Under the pieces are notes generated by a model. That model worked only from the letters and a program-made list of their open reading frames with translations, did no database searches and was not told the DNA's origin. A stretch of DNA of 64,000 nt from Phycisphaerales bacterium Planc_01 (GTDB lineage: Bacteria > Planctomycetota > Phycisphaerae > Sedimentisphaerales > Anaerobacaceae). The first letter of the stretch is position 1. Each line of letters starts with the position of its first letter. The position numbers were made by a program, and so were the translations under genes. Shown here piece by piece: positions 26,919-49,453 of this stretch. Location of the stretch: contig LVBB01000016.1 of assembly GCA_001603075.1 (NCBI GenBank), positions 1 through 64,000 of the forward strand. The letters are read 5' to 3'.

Positions 26919-26947
26919 TTGACGGGACCGGTCCCGAACGCTATAGT
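26919..26947 (+). promoter_or_regulatory. Strong sigma70-type promoter for a structured leader RNA
   Basis: TTGACG (26919-26924), a 17-bp spacer and TATAGT (26942-26947), five of six at each box. The first open frame with a ribosome site begins about 36 bases after the expected start point. Confidence 0.7.
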
Positions 26948-26989
26948 GCATGCAGGTGAACAGACCGTCTTTGAAGCAATAAGGTGAAA

Positions 26990-27118
26990 ATGACAAGCGA
27001 TCCGCCCAGAACCGTCTTTCGGCCGACCCGGAAAACAGCATCCGGTTCGCATAGCGCATCGGCAGGCGTATGCCGGTGGGTGATTTGCGCCTGCCCATTT
27101 TACGGGCGGCTCCTCTGA
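26990..27118 (+). CDS. Possible 42-residue leader peptide
   Basis: An ATG after AAGGTGAAA opens 42 codons (begins MTSDPPRTVFRPTRKTAS, contains CRWVICACPFYG) and stops inside the closing stem of the candidate structured RNA. The layout promoter, short peptide, terminator is that of transcription attenuation. There are no runs of a single amino-acid codon such as biosynthetic leader peptides carry. Low confidence that it is translated. Confidence 0.25.
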   Translation: MTSDPPRTVFRPTRKTASGSHSASAGVCRWVICACPFYGRLL

Positions 27119-27143
27119 CGGTCGGCGATCCCTGTGCAGGTAC

Positions 27144-27173
27144 AAGCCGGCCGCTAACGCCGGCTTTTTTTTT
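27144..27173 (+). terminator. Intrinsic terminator with T9 tract
   Basis: AAGCCGGC (27144-27151) pairs with GCCGGCTT (27159-27166) around a 7-nt loop, and the downstream arm runs into nine Ts (27165-27173). It is the only classical intrinsic terminator I see in the window. Confidence 0.85.
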
Positions 27174-27207
27174 GGATCCCCCGCGTGAAATGAGAAAGGA
27201 GGCCTTG

Positions 27208-27324
27208 ATGTCAACGAAGACGTTACCGATCTCTGTCCGGCCCGCCACGGGGCGAAGCTCACCTGCCGTGATGGTCGCATCATGTCACAAGAAGGCTCGG
27301 ACGCTGGACTGGTCTTTCTTCTAA
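27208..27324 (+). CDS. Small 38-residue protein with strong ribosome binding site
   Basis: AGAAAGGAGG lies seven bases before the ATG, one of the best ribosome sites in the window. The product starts MSTKTLPISVRPATGRSS and ends ARTLDWSFF. It is basic (several Arg and Lys, one Cys), has no membrane segment and has no family I recognise. It sits between the intrinsic terminator and the Rnk-like gene, 39 bases from the latter, so it may be co-expressed or be a translational leader. Confidence 0.4.
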   Translation: MSTKTLPISVRPATGRSSPAVMVASCHKKARTLDWSFF

Positions 27325-27363
27325 GGTTCGCCGGATTGCTTCCGGCTTGTAAGGACGAGGATC

Positions 27364-28062
27364 ATGACTTCAGAAACATTGCATGAGATCATTACAGAGG
27401 CCATCGCCGATCGGCCCAGAGACGGCCGACATTACTACCATCTGTGCTGGTGGGGCGAGCGGCTCCGCTGTCTGCCGACGCAGCACACGCAGGAGAAGCA
27501 CGAGATCTTCTTCATGGCCCAGGACGACGTCCTCGAGGCCGGGCTCTCGCAGCGACAGATCGACCTGATCGCAGAGCGCGTGCAGGCGTTCTGCAGCCGG
27601 CGGGGCATTCGGTTGACGCGGGCGCGGCAGAAGCCGAAGGCGAAGACGCCGGCCGCCGCAGAAAGAGAACTTCAGATCACGGACTTTGACATGTCCCGCC
27701 TGCAAGCCTTCTTGAACCAACTGGACGGCCACGACGCCTCCCGGCAGGCGGAGGCCGCCCAACTCCAGACGGTGCTGGCCAAGGCCAATGTCGTCCCCTC
27801 TCGCGACATTCCGGACGACGTGGTCACGTTGAACTCGAAGGTCCGCTTGCTGGACGACCGGAGCAACGAATCCATGGTCCTGTCGCTCGTCTTTCCGGCC
27901 GACGGCACCTCGGACGGCGACATGGAGGAGGCAAACGTCTCGGTGTTGAGTCCAATGGGCGCCTCGCTGCTCGGCCGTCACGTGGGCGAGCGGATCGAAA
28001 AAAGCATCCGCGTGGACGCGCTGCTGTATCAGCCGGAAGCCGCAGGCGATTACCACCTGTAG
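27364..28062 (+). CDS. Rnk/GreA-GreB C-terminal domain protein with an extra N-terminal domain
   Basis: The protein has 232 residues. From about residue 100 it matches the Rnk / GreA-GreB C-terminal family: ITDFDMSRLQAFLNQLD, then DVVTLNSKVRLLDD, MVLSLVFPADG, VSVLSPMGASLLGRHVGE and the ending LLYQPEAAGDYHL. Such proteins bind RNA polymerase near the secondary channel. Rnk itself lacks the catalytic coiled-coil tip, and so does this protein. Residues 1-95 (HYYHLCWWGERLRCL, FFMAQDDVLEAGLSQRQID) are an additional domain I do not recognise, making it longer than Rnk (about 135). AAGGACGAGG precedes the ATG. Confidence 0.8.
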   Translation: MTSETLHEIITEAIADRPRDGRHYYHLCWWGERLRCLPTQHTQEKHEIFFMAQDDVLEAGLSQRQIDLIAERVQAFCSRRGIRLTRARQKPKAKTPAAAERELQITDFDMSRLQAFLNQLDGHDASRQAEAAQLQTVLAKANVVPSRDIPDDVVTLNSKVRLLDDRSNESMVLSLVFPADGTSDGDMEEANVSVLSPMGASLLGRHVGERIEKSIRVDALLYQPEAAGDYHL

Positions 28063-28177: not shown

Positions 28178-29521
28178 TCAATACGTGTGGCCGTGGACCT
28201 TCGACGTGCGGAAGCCGAAAACGGCGATGACCACGAAGCAGATCAGCGGCAACACGAAAGACGCCCGCGTGCTTGACAGGGTCATGAAGCCCAGGTTGAA
28301 GGCATCCATGTCCATGATCCTGGCCTGGAGCGGCGGCATGACCGACCCGCCGCCGATGGCCATGATGAGCCCGGCCGCACCGAGCTTGGCGTCGTCCCCC
28401 AGTCCCTTCAAGGCAATTCCGTAGATCGTCGGGAACATCAGCGACATGCACGCCGAGACACCGATCAGGCAGTACAGGCCAAGCATCCCCCGGATGAAAA
28501 TCGTGCCCGCGACCAGCGTGCCGCCGGCGATCGCCAGTGTCATGAGCAACCCGCCCGGACTGACGTATCGCAGCAGAAACGTGCAGATGAACCGGCTGCT
28601 GACGAAGATGACCATCGCCACCATGTTGTAGCCTTGGGCCTTCTCTGCGGTCAGGCCCAGTTCGTTAACGCCGTATTGAATGATGAACGTCCAGACCATG
28701 ATCTGAACGCCGACGTAGAAGGTCTGCGCCACGACGCCTTCGAGATACTTGCGATTGCGAAACAGACGTTTGAGGGTCGGACCCACGTTCAGCGACGTGT
28801 CGTCTTCGCCCTTGCTGCGGGGCAGGCGGGCGACGGCAAAAACCACCAGGGCCACCAGCACCACCAGTCCAAGGGCCATATATGGGCCGATGATGATATC
28901 AAGATCGTGCTGCCGGATCGCGGCGAACTGCTCCGGCGAGGTCTGCTGGAGCGCACGCCGGGCCTCTTCACCGGTCGTGTCGAGCCGGGCCAGAATCAGG
29001 TTCTTGGCGACCAGCATTCCCGTGAGCGATCCGATCGGATTGAAAGCCTGGGCGAAGTTCAGACGCTGCGTGGCCGTCTCCTCCGGGCCCATGGCCAGGA
29101 CATACGGATTGGCGCTGGTTTCGAGGAAGGACAGGCCGCAGGTCATCACGAAATACGAGACCAGAAAGGCCCAGAAGGCCATCATCCAGCCCGACGGGAT
29201 GAACAGCAGACAGCCGGTGGCATACAGCCCCAGGCCCACGAGGATGCCCGTCTTGTAGCTGAACCGCTTGATGAACAGGGCGGCCGGGATCGCCATCACG
29301 CAATAGCCGCCATAGAAGGCGAACTGAACCAATGCGCTTTCCGTGTAGCTCAGCAGCAGGATGTTCTTGAACGCCGCCACCATCGGATTGGTGATGTCGT
29401 TGGCGAAGCCCCACATGGCGAAGAGACTGGTCACCAGAACGAAGGCCCAGAGAATCTTCGGCGGAATCACCGGCGGTTTCTGCGTTGCGCCCTTGAGGTC
29501 GTCAGGTGAGGTCTCTGCCAT
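28178..29521 (-). CDS. fucP: FucP-type sugar:H+ symporter (MFS), copy 1
   Basis: The 447-residue inner-membrane permease has about twelve hydrophobic helices. Family marks of the L-fucose permease group are AMWGFANDITNPMVAAF in helix 1, YGGYCVMAIPAALFIKRFSYKTG, and SFLETSANPYVLAMGP followed by RLNFAQAFNPIGSLTG. Members import fucose, glucose/galactose or related sugars with protons. The start is the ATG of MAETSPDDLKG, because the paralogue upstream has the same context (CAGGGCGCAACyATGGCAGA). An in-frame start 78 bases upstream is rejected. It shares an upstream sequence element with that paralogue. Confidence 0.88.
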   Translation of the reverse strand: MAETSPDDLKGATQKPPVIPPKILWAFVLVTSLFAMWGFANDITNPMVAAFKNILLLSYTESALVQFAFYGGYCVMAIPAALFIKRFSYKTGILVGLGLYATGCLLFIPSGWMMAFWAFLVSYFVMTCGLSFLETSANPYVLAMGPEETATQRLNFAQAFNPIGSLTGMLVAKNLILARLDTTGEEARRALQQTSPEQFAAIRQHDLDIIIGPYMALGLVVLVALVVFAVARLPRSKGEDDTSLNVGPTLKRLFRNRKYLEGVVAQTFYVGVQIMVWTFIIQYGVNELGLTAEKAQGYNMVAMVIFVSSRFICTFLLRYVSPGGLLMTLAIAGGTLVAGTIFIRGMLGLYCLIGVSACMSLMFPTIYGIALKGLGDDAKLGAAGLIMAIGGGSVMPPLQARIMDMDAFNLGFMTLSSTRASFVLPLICFVVIAVFGFRTSKVHGHTY

Positions 29522-29594
29522 TGGTTGCGCCCTGTATTGAGATGAATCCTTCCGTTCTGTTCCGGCCCGGTCACGATACGAGCCCACAAAGATC

Positions 29595-29628
29595 GCCATA
29601 GAATGGCGGCCCGGGGCACGAACGTCAA
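29595..29628 (-). promoter_or_regulatory. Conserved upstream element of permease copy 1
   Basis: On the minus strand TTGACG and TATGGC are separated by 22 bp, exactly as at 31212-31245 upstream of the second permease (TTGACG-22-TATAGC). The sequence just downstream is also similar. This could be a long-spaced, activator-dependent promoter or an operator. Confidence 0.4.
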
Positions 29629-29640
29629 GGGGCGATCGGC

Positions 29641-31125
29641 TCAGCCGCGGGCTTCGGCCACAGGCTGGCGATGCTGGTGGATTCTACAAATGACGGCCCC
29701 GTAGAATCCCACGATGAGAAACGCGATGGCAGGAACCCAGTAGGCCACCTTGATGCTGCCAAACCCGTCCGAGACAGCGCCCTGAATCTGCGTCAGCACC
29801 GCCGCCCCGGCGATGGCCATCACCATGCCCGAGCCCCCCACCTTCGTGTCTTCCCCCAGCCCGGCGATGCCCAGGCCATAGATGGTCGGGAACATCAGCG
29901 ACATGCAGAAGGAAATCATCATCAGGGCATAGATGCCAACGAAACCGGTCGCATAGATCGTGATCAGACAGCAGGCTGCGGCGATGGCGGACAAGGCAGT
30001 CAGGAGGTTCCGAGGCTTGACGAAGTCCATGACGAGCGTACAGGTGAAGCGACCGATCACGAACAGAATCAGCGACATAATGTAATACGTTCCCCCGGCC
30101 TGCTCGGCCGTTCGTGGGAGCAGGGCATCGAGCCCGACCCATTCGCAGAGGTTGTAGAACCCGGCCGCAATCGGCTCCAAACTGCGCAACTTCGCGATGA
30201 TGACCTCGGGCGCAGCGCCGTCTCCCAGGCTCGCGACGACCGCATCGAGGTCCATCTGGATCAGGACATATCGGATGATGTAGGACCATACCGCAATCTG
30301 CGCGCCGACGTAGAAGAACTGGGCGATGACGCCCCAAACATAATTCTTGTTCCCGAAGAGCCGACCAAACGTGTTCTTCAGGTCCAGCCGCTTGTCATCC
30401 TCTTTGAGGTTGGGCATCTTCGTCAGGTAGATCGCCAGGAACAGACCCGCCATGACCAATCCCATGACGAAGTAGGTCATGGTGACGGCGTGCAACTCTC
30501 CCCTCTGAATCGCCGCCAGTTCTTCCTGAGGAAGCGCCTGCCTCTGCTCGGCCGTCAGGACGTTGAGTTGAGAGAGCACGAAGACCTGGCTCACGACCAC
30601 ACCGGTGATCGCACCGAACGGATTGAACGACTGAGCGAAGTTCAGACGTTGCGTGGCGGTCAGTTCCGAGCCGATCGCGCACACGTAGGAATTGGTGGCG
30701 GTCTCGAGAACCGAGAGTCCCGCGAAGAGGATCACCAGGGACACCAGAAACAGCATGAAACACAGATACATGCTCAGCCCGGCGGCCAGACCGGCCGGAT
30801 AGATCAACATCGCACCGCCGGCGAACAGCCCAAGCCCAAGAAGCACGCCGGACTTGTAGGTGTATCTCTTGATAAACATGGCCCCGGGCAGGGCGAAGCA
30901 GCCGTAACCAAAGAAGTAGCAGGCCACCTGTATCCACGCCGTCCTCGAATCCGACAGGCTCATGATTCGCTTGAACGCCGCCAGCATGGTGTCGGTCATG
31001 TTGTTGGGTATCGCCCACGCCAGGAACAGCGAGCTCAGCAGGATAAATGGCCATACAATTCCATGCGGAATCACGCGCGCTTTCCGCGTCGAACCGCCCA
31101 CGCTGGGAGAAGACGTTTCTGCCAT
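29641..31125 (-). CDS. FucP-type sugar:H+ symporter (MFS), copy 2
   Basis: The 494-residue paralogue of the downstream permease has about twelve helices and the same landmarks: FLAWAIPNNMTDTMLAAFKR, YFFGYGCFALPGAMFIKRYT, LSVLETATNSYVCAIGSE and RLNFAQSFNPFGAITGVV. The central loop between helices 6 and 7 is longer than in copy 1 (about residues 200-250), and another insertion with EVIIAKLRSLEPIAAG lies before helix 9. The start is ATG of MAETSSPSVGG. The two permeases are tandem and each has its own upstream element, so they are probably co-regulated rather than strictly one operon. The substrate is likely a deoxy- or aldose sugar. Confidence 0.87.
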   Translation of the reverse strand: MAETSSPSVGGSTRKARVIPHGIVWPFILLSSLFLAWAIPNNMTDTMLAAFKRIMSLSDSRTAWIQVACYFFGYGCFALPGAMFIKRYTYKSGVLLGLGLFAGGAMLIYPAGLAAGLSMYLCFMLFLVSLVILFAGLSVLETATNSYVCAIGSELTATQRLNFAQSFNPFGAITGVVVSQVFVLSQLNVLTAEQRQALPQEELAAIQRGELHAVTMTYFVMGLVMAGLFLAIYLTKMPNLKEDDKRLDLKNTFGRLFGNKNYVWGVIAQFFYVGAQIAVWSYIIRYVLIQMDLDAVVASLGDGAAPEVIIAKLRSLEPIAAGFYNLCEWVGLDALLPRTAEQAGGTYYIMSLILFVIGRFTCTLVMDFVKPRNLLTALSAIAAACCLITIYATGFVGIYALMMISFCMSLMFPTIYGLGIAGLGEDTKVGGSGMVMAIAGAAVLTQIQGAVSDGFGSIKVAYWVPAIAFLIVGFYGAVICRIHQHRQPVAEARG

Positions 31126-31211
31126 AGTTGCGCCCTGTGTGTAGAGGAACACTTCCCTTTCTGTCCGAGCGCTCCCGACTCGAACGGCATCGGGACCGGC
31201 TCACGATGAAC

Positions 31212-48829: not shown

Positions 48830-49453
48830 TCAGCTCACCGGCATGTAATACGGCAGCCGGGCAAGCTCCATGGCGATATCCAGAGTAATCACTTTGACTC
48901 GTTTGGGGGCCTCGACCCTGCATGGGGCGAAATTGAGGATTCCCTTGATCCCGACGCCGACAAGCCGATCCACGGTCTGCTGGGCAACCTGACGGGGGAC
49001 AGCCACGATCGCCAGGAAGATCTCCCGCTGCATCAGCGAATCGACACCGGCGAGATCTTCGATCTCGACGCCATTGATCGTGCGGCCGACCTTCTCCGGA
49101 TCGGCATCGAAGGCCGCAACGATATCCAACCCATAGGTACGAAACCCCGGATAGGCCAGCAAGGCCGAACCCAGATCACCTACCCCGATCAACGCCGCCC
49201 TCCGGATCACGTCCAGACGCAGGATCCTCTGTATTTCGCGCGCAAGCCTGCCGATGTTGTAGCCCACCCCGGGGGTCCCGAAATCCCCGAAATAGGAGAA
49301 ATCCTTGCGAATCTGATGCGAATGAACGCCCACGAAGGCGGCCAGAGACTGGCTGGAGATGTGCTCGTTGCCCTTCTCCGCCGAGAACATCAGTCCTCGC
49401 AGGTAGATGGGCAACCGGCGAACGGTCTCGTCAGGGATTCTATGATACCTCAT
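48830..49453 (-). CDS. rex: Redox-sensing transcriptional repressor Rex
   Basis: The protein has 207 residues. The N-terminal winged helix (IPDETVRRLPIYLRGL, ISSQSLAAFVGVHSHQIRKD, FSYFGDFGTPGVGYNI) binds DNA. The Rossmann domain (AALIGVGDLGSALLAY) binds NADH, and the C-terminal swapped helix follows (VKVITLDIAMELARLPYYM). Rex releases DNA when the NADH/NAD+ ratio is high. A near-consensus Rex operator lies just upstream of its own start, and the next genes on the same strand are the hydrogenase operon, so Rex probably represses itself and the hydrogenase. Confidence 0.95.
   Translation of the reverse strand: MRYHRIPDETVRRLPIYLRGLMFSAEKGNEHISSQSLAAFVGVHSHQIRKDFSYFGDFGTPGVGYNIGRLAREIQRILRLDVIRRAALIGVGDLGSALLAYPGFRTYGLDIVAAFDADPEKVGRTINGVEIEDLAGVDSLMQREIFLAIVAVPRQVAQQTVDRLVGVGIKGILNFAPCRVEAPKRVKVITLDIAMELARLPYYMPVS

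Follow-up and report, generated by a model that had tools for sequence, protein, structure and literature searches.

The 64,000-nucleotide stretch of Phycisphaerales bacterium Planc_01 analysed here, called the window below, belongs to a genome of 5.65 Mb. On its plus strand it harbours a gene for an Rnk-like protein (27364..28062), in front of which lie a sigma-70-type promoter (26919..26947), an RNA leader of about 215 nt ending in an intrinsic terminator (27144..27173) and a micropeptide ORF of 38 residues (27208..27324). The locus was compared among three species of one uncultured Phycisphaerae genus: the genome of the window (G000) and its congeners G005 and G002.

A Rnk/GreA-C gene had been proposed downstream of the leader, and Rnk_N and GreA_GreB domains were indeed found by Pfam in 27364-28062. 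They follow an N-terminal domain of approximately 85 residues, an arrangement assigned from Pfam and the PDB entries 3bmb and 2pn0. The C-terminal half resembled Rnk PDB 3bmb (profile E 8.7e-23; Foldseek E 4.7e-11), and the model of the protein had a pLDDT of 78.8. The N-terminal 85 or so residues, in which H-x-C-W-W...C...HT...H is invariant, had no match in Pfam, and their model had no convincing PDB match by Foldseek. This domain (window 27364-27640) also occurs on its own as a tandem unit behind a full-length copy, and partial copies are located in G036 contig C34 near 113212-113834. Convergent with rnk, on the minus strand, are two adjacent transporter genes, one matching Pfam MFS_1 and kept as a neighbour in G005 (28178-29599), the other its apparent paralogue by eye (29641-31152).

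The promoter was present as originally claimed, with the hexamers TTGACG (26919-26924) and TATAGT (26942-26947) separated by 17 nt, and we infer a transcription start near 26954. The same spacing was found in G005 (TTGACG-17-TATAGT) and in G002 (TTGACA-17-TATGCT). Since six sites with at least 10/12 matches occur in the window, the promoter match is by itself unremarkable, and its support comes from this conservation. Elsewhere in the window, a TTGACA-17-TATAGT sequence (11/12; 49537-49510, minus strand) that is stronger than the leader promoter precedes an ORF named by eye as a Rex-like redox repressor (48830-49453, minus strand).

The terminator consists of an 8-bp stem (AAGCCGGC/GCCGGCTT, 27144-27151/27159-27166), a 7-nt loop and a T9 tail (27165-27173). 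Across both strands of the 64-kb window, no other stretch reaches seven consecutive T, in agreement with the claim that this is its only classical T9 terminator. A DNA search of 61 relatives detected homologues of the leader only in G005 (72% identity) and G002 (73%), in both cases in front of the orthologous Rnk-like gene, whose protein identity was 96% and 63%, respectively. A covariance model of the leader with 208 positions, searched in 89 genomes of the family, recovered these three loci; its other matches were weak, at E 7e-4 to 0.09, and covered 58-130 nt. Scanning contigs with the Rnk-like protein yielded the G002 leader (L102) again and no new leader was recognised, and the distant Rnk-like paralogues (37-45% identity) were without this leader.

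In the three-way alignment, 83% of the columns were invariant in a core of 64 nt (27112-27175), compared to 43% in 26954-27111 and 11% between the terminator and rnk. The core contained invariant runs of 18 nt (27112-27129), 11 nt (27142-27152) and 19 nt (27156-27174, in the terminator). The terminator and a putative antiterminator described below are the only strongly conserved part of the leader, and its 5′ three quarters diverge fast. Between G000 and G005 the leader identity was 59%, whereas the fourfold-degenerate sites of rnk differed at 18/114 (16% divergence); as judged from these alignments, the RNA body diverges faster than the fourfold-degenerate sites. This bears on the independent small RNA that had been proposed as one alternative, that is, a trans-acting RNA of about 215 nt with rnk expressed from elsewhere or by leak-through. 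Such a gene would be in keeping with the possession of its own promoter and a strong terminator, and the greA leader released in E. coli is likewise active in trans, as GraL (PMC6829880). However, with so fast-diverging a body, a trans-acting RNA working through that body is not expected; moreover, the leader always adjoins the orthologous gene and no convincing promoter follows the terminator. A purely independent small RNA is thus quite unlikely, although the terminated RNA of about 215 nt may have a second role, by analogy with GraL in E. coli.

The arrangement might also be due to chance, with an ordinary intergenic terminator serving the DUF481 gene upstream and a sequence that merely resembles a promoter; in favour of this, promoter matches of 10/12 are no rarity in the window. 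The promoter, however, separates the terminator from the DUF481 stop (26786), and promoter spacing, core and terminator were all kept although the rnk protein differs by up to 37%; we consider a chance origin very improbable.

The 18-nt invariant block CCUCUGACGGUCGGCGAU (27112..27129) includes the heptamer GGUCGGC (27120-27126), which is invariant, is located 24-25 nt upstream of the terminator and is complementary to the 5′ arm of the terminator, GCCGGCC (27146-27152). The two would form an antiterminator hairpin (27120..27152) at the same place in the three species. This 7-bp helix was the only shared helix of that length reaching the terminator 5′ arm. After shuffling of the alignment columns, a helix of this kind arose anywhere in 1.4% of trials and, with its position limited to 40 nt from the arm, in 0.3%. 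A second ACCGUCUUU copy at 26964 was found only in G000 and was dismissed as not conserved. The local energies in the three species were −14.5/−11.5/−15.1 kcal/mol for the antiterminator and −13.4/−13.8/−13.4 kcal/mol for the terminator, so that the two structures are of comparable modelled stability. At the decision point, just before the 3′ arm of the terminator is made, the antiterminator was predicted at 0.84 in G000, 0.99 in G002 and 0.14 in G005, and in the full-length RNA the terminator dominated the predicted ensemble in all three (0.92-0.96). In G005 the antiterminator was predicted to be thermodynamically favoured only when upstream strands were masked.

Two such upstream strands are candidate anti-antiterminators. 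Strand a (ACCGUC, 27011..27016) may pair with GACGGU (27117-27122) in a shared 6-bp helix that is also in the RNAalifold consensus, and strand b (GCCGACC, 27022..27028) with GGUCGGC (27120-27126) in a shared 7-bp helix with G-U variants, which ViennaRNA did not predict to be populated. Both helices, ACCGUC/GACGGU and GCCGAYY/GGUCGGC, would mask the antiterminator block in the three species. In total, three shared helices of at least 6 bp were observed versus 0.56 expected, a result reached by 4.3% of the shuffles and therefore weak evidence. In the three species of this one genus, no covariation was found in the antiterminator and terminator arms because these arms are invariant. The alignment thus predicts a terminator, an antiterminator and possible anti-antiterminators, with pairs that hardly vary and offer no proof by covariation.

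The RNA as a whole did not behave as a conserved structure. Its fold of −81.4 kcal/mol was no better than that of dinucleotide shuffles (−76.8 +/− 4.8; z −0.97), the minimum-energy folds of the two homologues differed, as did the folds of the 5′ part between species, and changes on both sides were present in only 4 of 53 pairs, with an RNAalifold covariation term of approximately zero (0.02) for the three sequences. A conserved whole-RNA structure was rejected on these grounds, and with it the four nested helices described from the window alone. The statement that no known RNA family could be recognised held in scans of 4227 Rfam families, which gave no hit; matches to Pseudomon-groES and Betaproteobacteria_toxic_sRNA were far below their cut-offs and were discarded as chance. 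A metabolite-binding riboswitch of a new class would fit the length of the leader and the presence of an expression platform made of terminator and antiterminator. It is nevertheless highly unlikely, as Rfam gave no match, nothing resembling a conserved aptamer precedes the core, and just three homologues in one genus are available; nothing was found in favour of the riboswitch-like alternative originally suggested.

Between the terminator and rnk lie 190, 478 or 89 nt, depending on the species. Promoter-like matches in these gaps were scored out of 12 with a threshold of 8/12; none reached it in two species, including that of the window, and G005 had one match of 8/12. The absence of a second promoter before the small ORF and rnk, as first reported, was in this way upheld. 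In the paralogue loci in which a promoter of at least 10/12 was recognised, the spacer was 16 nt, and two of them had perfect consensus hexamers. At L078 and L080, in another genus of the family, TTGACA-16-TATAAT was located approximately 370-460 nt upstream of rnk, and these perfect promoters suggest high expression of Rnk-like operons.

The leader is probably a transcription attenuator, a conditional terminator controlling the operon of micropeptide and Rnk-like gene. It lies upstream of a gene of the rnk/greA family on the same strand, with an intrinsic terminator between promoter and gene, and a conserved alternative antiterminator excluding the terminator is predicted in three species. 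The attenuator alternative of the original prediction is thereby favoured, as the conserved terminator and antiterminator always precede the orthologous Rnk-like gene with no convincing promoter between. Against it speak the small sample of three homologues from one genus, the lack of variation in the arms, the predicted disadvantage of the antiterminator in G005 and the differing 5′ folds; termination may also be constitutive, in which case rnk would be expressed through leakage or from a promoter that escaped recognition. Sequence comparison predicts that read-through would be regulated in the cell, and the switch may be depicted as follows: RNA polymerase would start near 26954 and the terminator would form by default, releasing an RNA of about 215 nt. 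If GGUCGGC (27120-27126) captured GCCGGCC (27146-27152), transcription would read through into the micropeptide ORF and rnk, and masking of GGUCGGC by 27011-27016 and/or 27022-27028 would favour termination.

One candidate for the trigger is translation of a possible leader ORF of 42 codons (26990..27118), which has an AAGGTG ribosome site (26981-26986) and ends with a UGA in the 18-nt invariant block. In none of the three species do stops or indels interrupt the ORF, which in G002 requires a GTG start. That its translation is the trigger, with the UGA and the ribosome footprint covering the antiterminator arm, is possible; it remains a candidate and not a finding because the evidence for coding is weak: the frame had a z of 2.2 and a reverse frame one of 2.8, synonymous changes among the three species were few, and third codon positions were not the most variable. 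A more specific version of the attenuator reading, in which the site of ribosome pausing in the ORF would pick antiterminator or terminator, gains from the folding predictions: masking strands a and b at the decision point raised the predicted antiterminator from 0.14 to 0.86 in G000 and from 0.01 to 0.97 in G005, and a ribosome at the stop codon abolished it in all three species. In G002, however, the same masking lowered it from 0.59 to 0.09, and besides the unclear coding selection and the GTG start, no run of a single regulatory codon was found in the product MTSDPPRTVFRPTRKTASGSHSASAGVCRWVICACPFYGRLL or its homologues. Ribosome-mediated attenuation is therefore somewhat unlikely. Attenuators of the trp type have a short ORF with its stop codon beside the antiterminator arm, for which upstream strands compete. 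The leader of the window is like them in its candidate ORF stop beside the antiterminator arm and its competing upstream strands, and unlike them in having neither a run of regulatory codons nor clear coding selection.

Leaders with terminators are known in front of related genes. The rnk-leader RF01771 is a predicted terminator/antiterminator upstream of rnk (Naville and Gautheret 2010, PMC2965389), and greA/rnk genes rank seventh among the gene families with predicted attenuators (PMC2965389). The leader described here is similarly a predicted terminator/antiterminator before a gene of the same protein family, but differs from RF01771 in sequence, structure and phylum and in the micropeptide ORF between terminator and gene. 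RF01771 had no match at E <= 10 in the genome of the window (gathering score 50 bits), and in one control genome the same search gave a match above the cut-off. In E. coli, about one third of the greA transcripts pass the GraL terminator, and GreA raises termination in its own leader, yielding GraL (PMC6829880). Here too the gene product is an RNA-polymerase-binding member of the GreA superfamily and an intrinsic terminator lies in the leader, and release of a short RNA with partial read-through, as for GraL, is predicted. GraL is 37-59 nt long with little before the terminator (PMC6829880), whereas the leader of the window runs to about 215 nt and includes a conserved arm for antitermination as well as a possible ORF. 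By this analogy, feedback of the Rnk-like protein is a plausible alternative trigger; that this protein or another RNA polymerase factor feeds back on termination is possible, if slightly less likely than translation of the leader ORF as the trigger, and another factor or ligand is as likely as that translation. The best reading of the sequence is that the leader works like the rnk and greA leaders of other phyla and matches no Rfam family. Switches of this kind were already known from other bacteria in front of genes of this family; the one described here differs in sequence, and an unusual, very small peptide gene comes after it.

The 38-residue ORF with a very strong ribosome site was present as described, at 27208-27324 behind GAGAAAGGAGGCCTTG, and it ends in LDWSFF-stop. 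Its C-terminus recurs upstream of Rnk-like genes, orthologous as well as paralogous, which places the ORF by sequence in a family of micropeptides associated with Rnk-like operons; the first reading had missed this. Searched as a degenerate DNA pattern, D-W-(S/C)-F-F-stop gave two matches in the genome of the window, upstream of both its Rnk-like genes, where by our own arithmetic about 0.003 would be expected per genome. A broader pattern, which allowed any T-N-Y codon behind the tryptophan, gave ten matches in 397 genomes of the class; all six within the genus were upstream of Rnk-like genes, and the four outside it were at the level of the control pattern. The ending (I/L/T)(D/E)W-x-(F/L)-(F/L)-stop was identified in nine loci upstream of Rnk-like genes, the rest of the peptide varying. 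The window-type locus of G002 is without a D-W-x-F-F ORF, so the ORF is not essential to the leader. Attenuation by aromatic codons at this ORF was rejected, as no T-run terminator was observed behind it in its loci.

A ribosome site and another micropeptide usually come immediately after this stop in the paralogous operons. The second micropeptide has the core (N/S/D)KHP(H/R)-(L/R)-(P/A)R(S/N)(D/E)(D/E) and was detected in 13 loci of the family, upstream of Rnk-like genes (among them L063 1632-1815, L078, L080, L082, L083, L085, L095 and L087). Many synonymous differences across these loci indicate that it is coding, and it had no match in Pfam or NCBIfam. The RNA of the window as a degenerate KHPHLPR peptide was rejected, its frame being interrupted. 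Paralogous operons also display a conserved protein of approximately 75-95 residues directly before rnk (L063 ~2000-2280; equivalents in L052, L094, L079 and L084) with the motif MATWKIE...VEA.NLVKAK..A.R.CRRHLP.G.IYLEAEGHY, for which Pfam and NCBIfam gave no match.

To our knowledge, D/E-W-x-F/L-F is not a known arrest motif. Like regulatory arrest peptides, whose ORFs precede the genes under their control (such as those in PMC10987492), the micropeptide is an upstream ORF conserved just in its last residues with a ribosome site after its stop; unlike them it ends in D/E-W-x-F/L-F, and arrest is putative here. A switch in two steps, attenuation in the leader (possibly by feedback of the Rnk-like protein) followed by stalling of ribosomes at the stop codon of the micropeptide to gate translation of the next ORF, is unlikely. 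If true, the stalling step at D/E-W-x-F/L-F would be common to the paralogous operons across the family and represent a new class of arrest peptides.

This additional, unrelated design from Planctomycetota suggests recurrent acquisition of attenuators by genes for such RNA-polymerase-binding factors, a pattern in keeping with control exerted by the polymerase. The linked micropeptides offer a concrete case in which to test upstream peptides in a phylum that has received little study.
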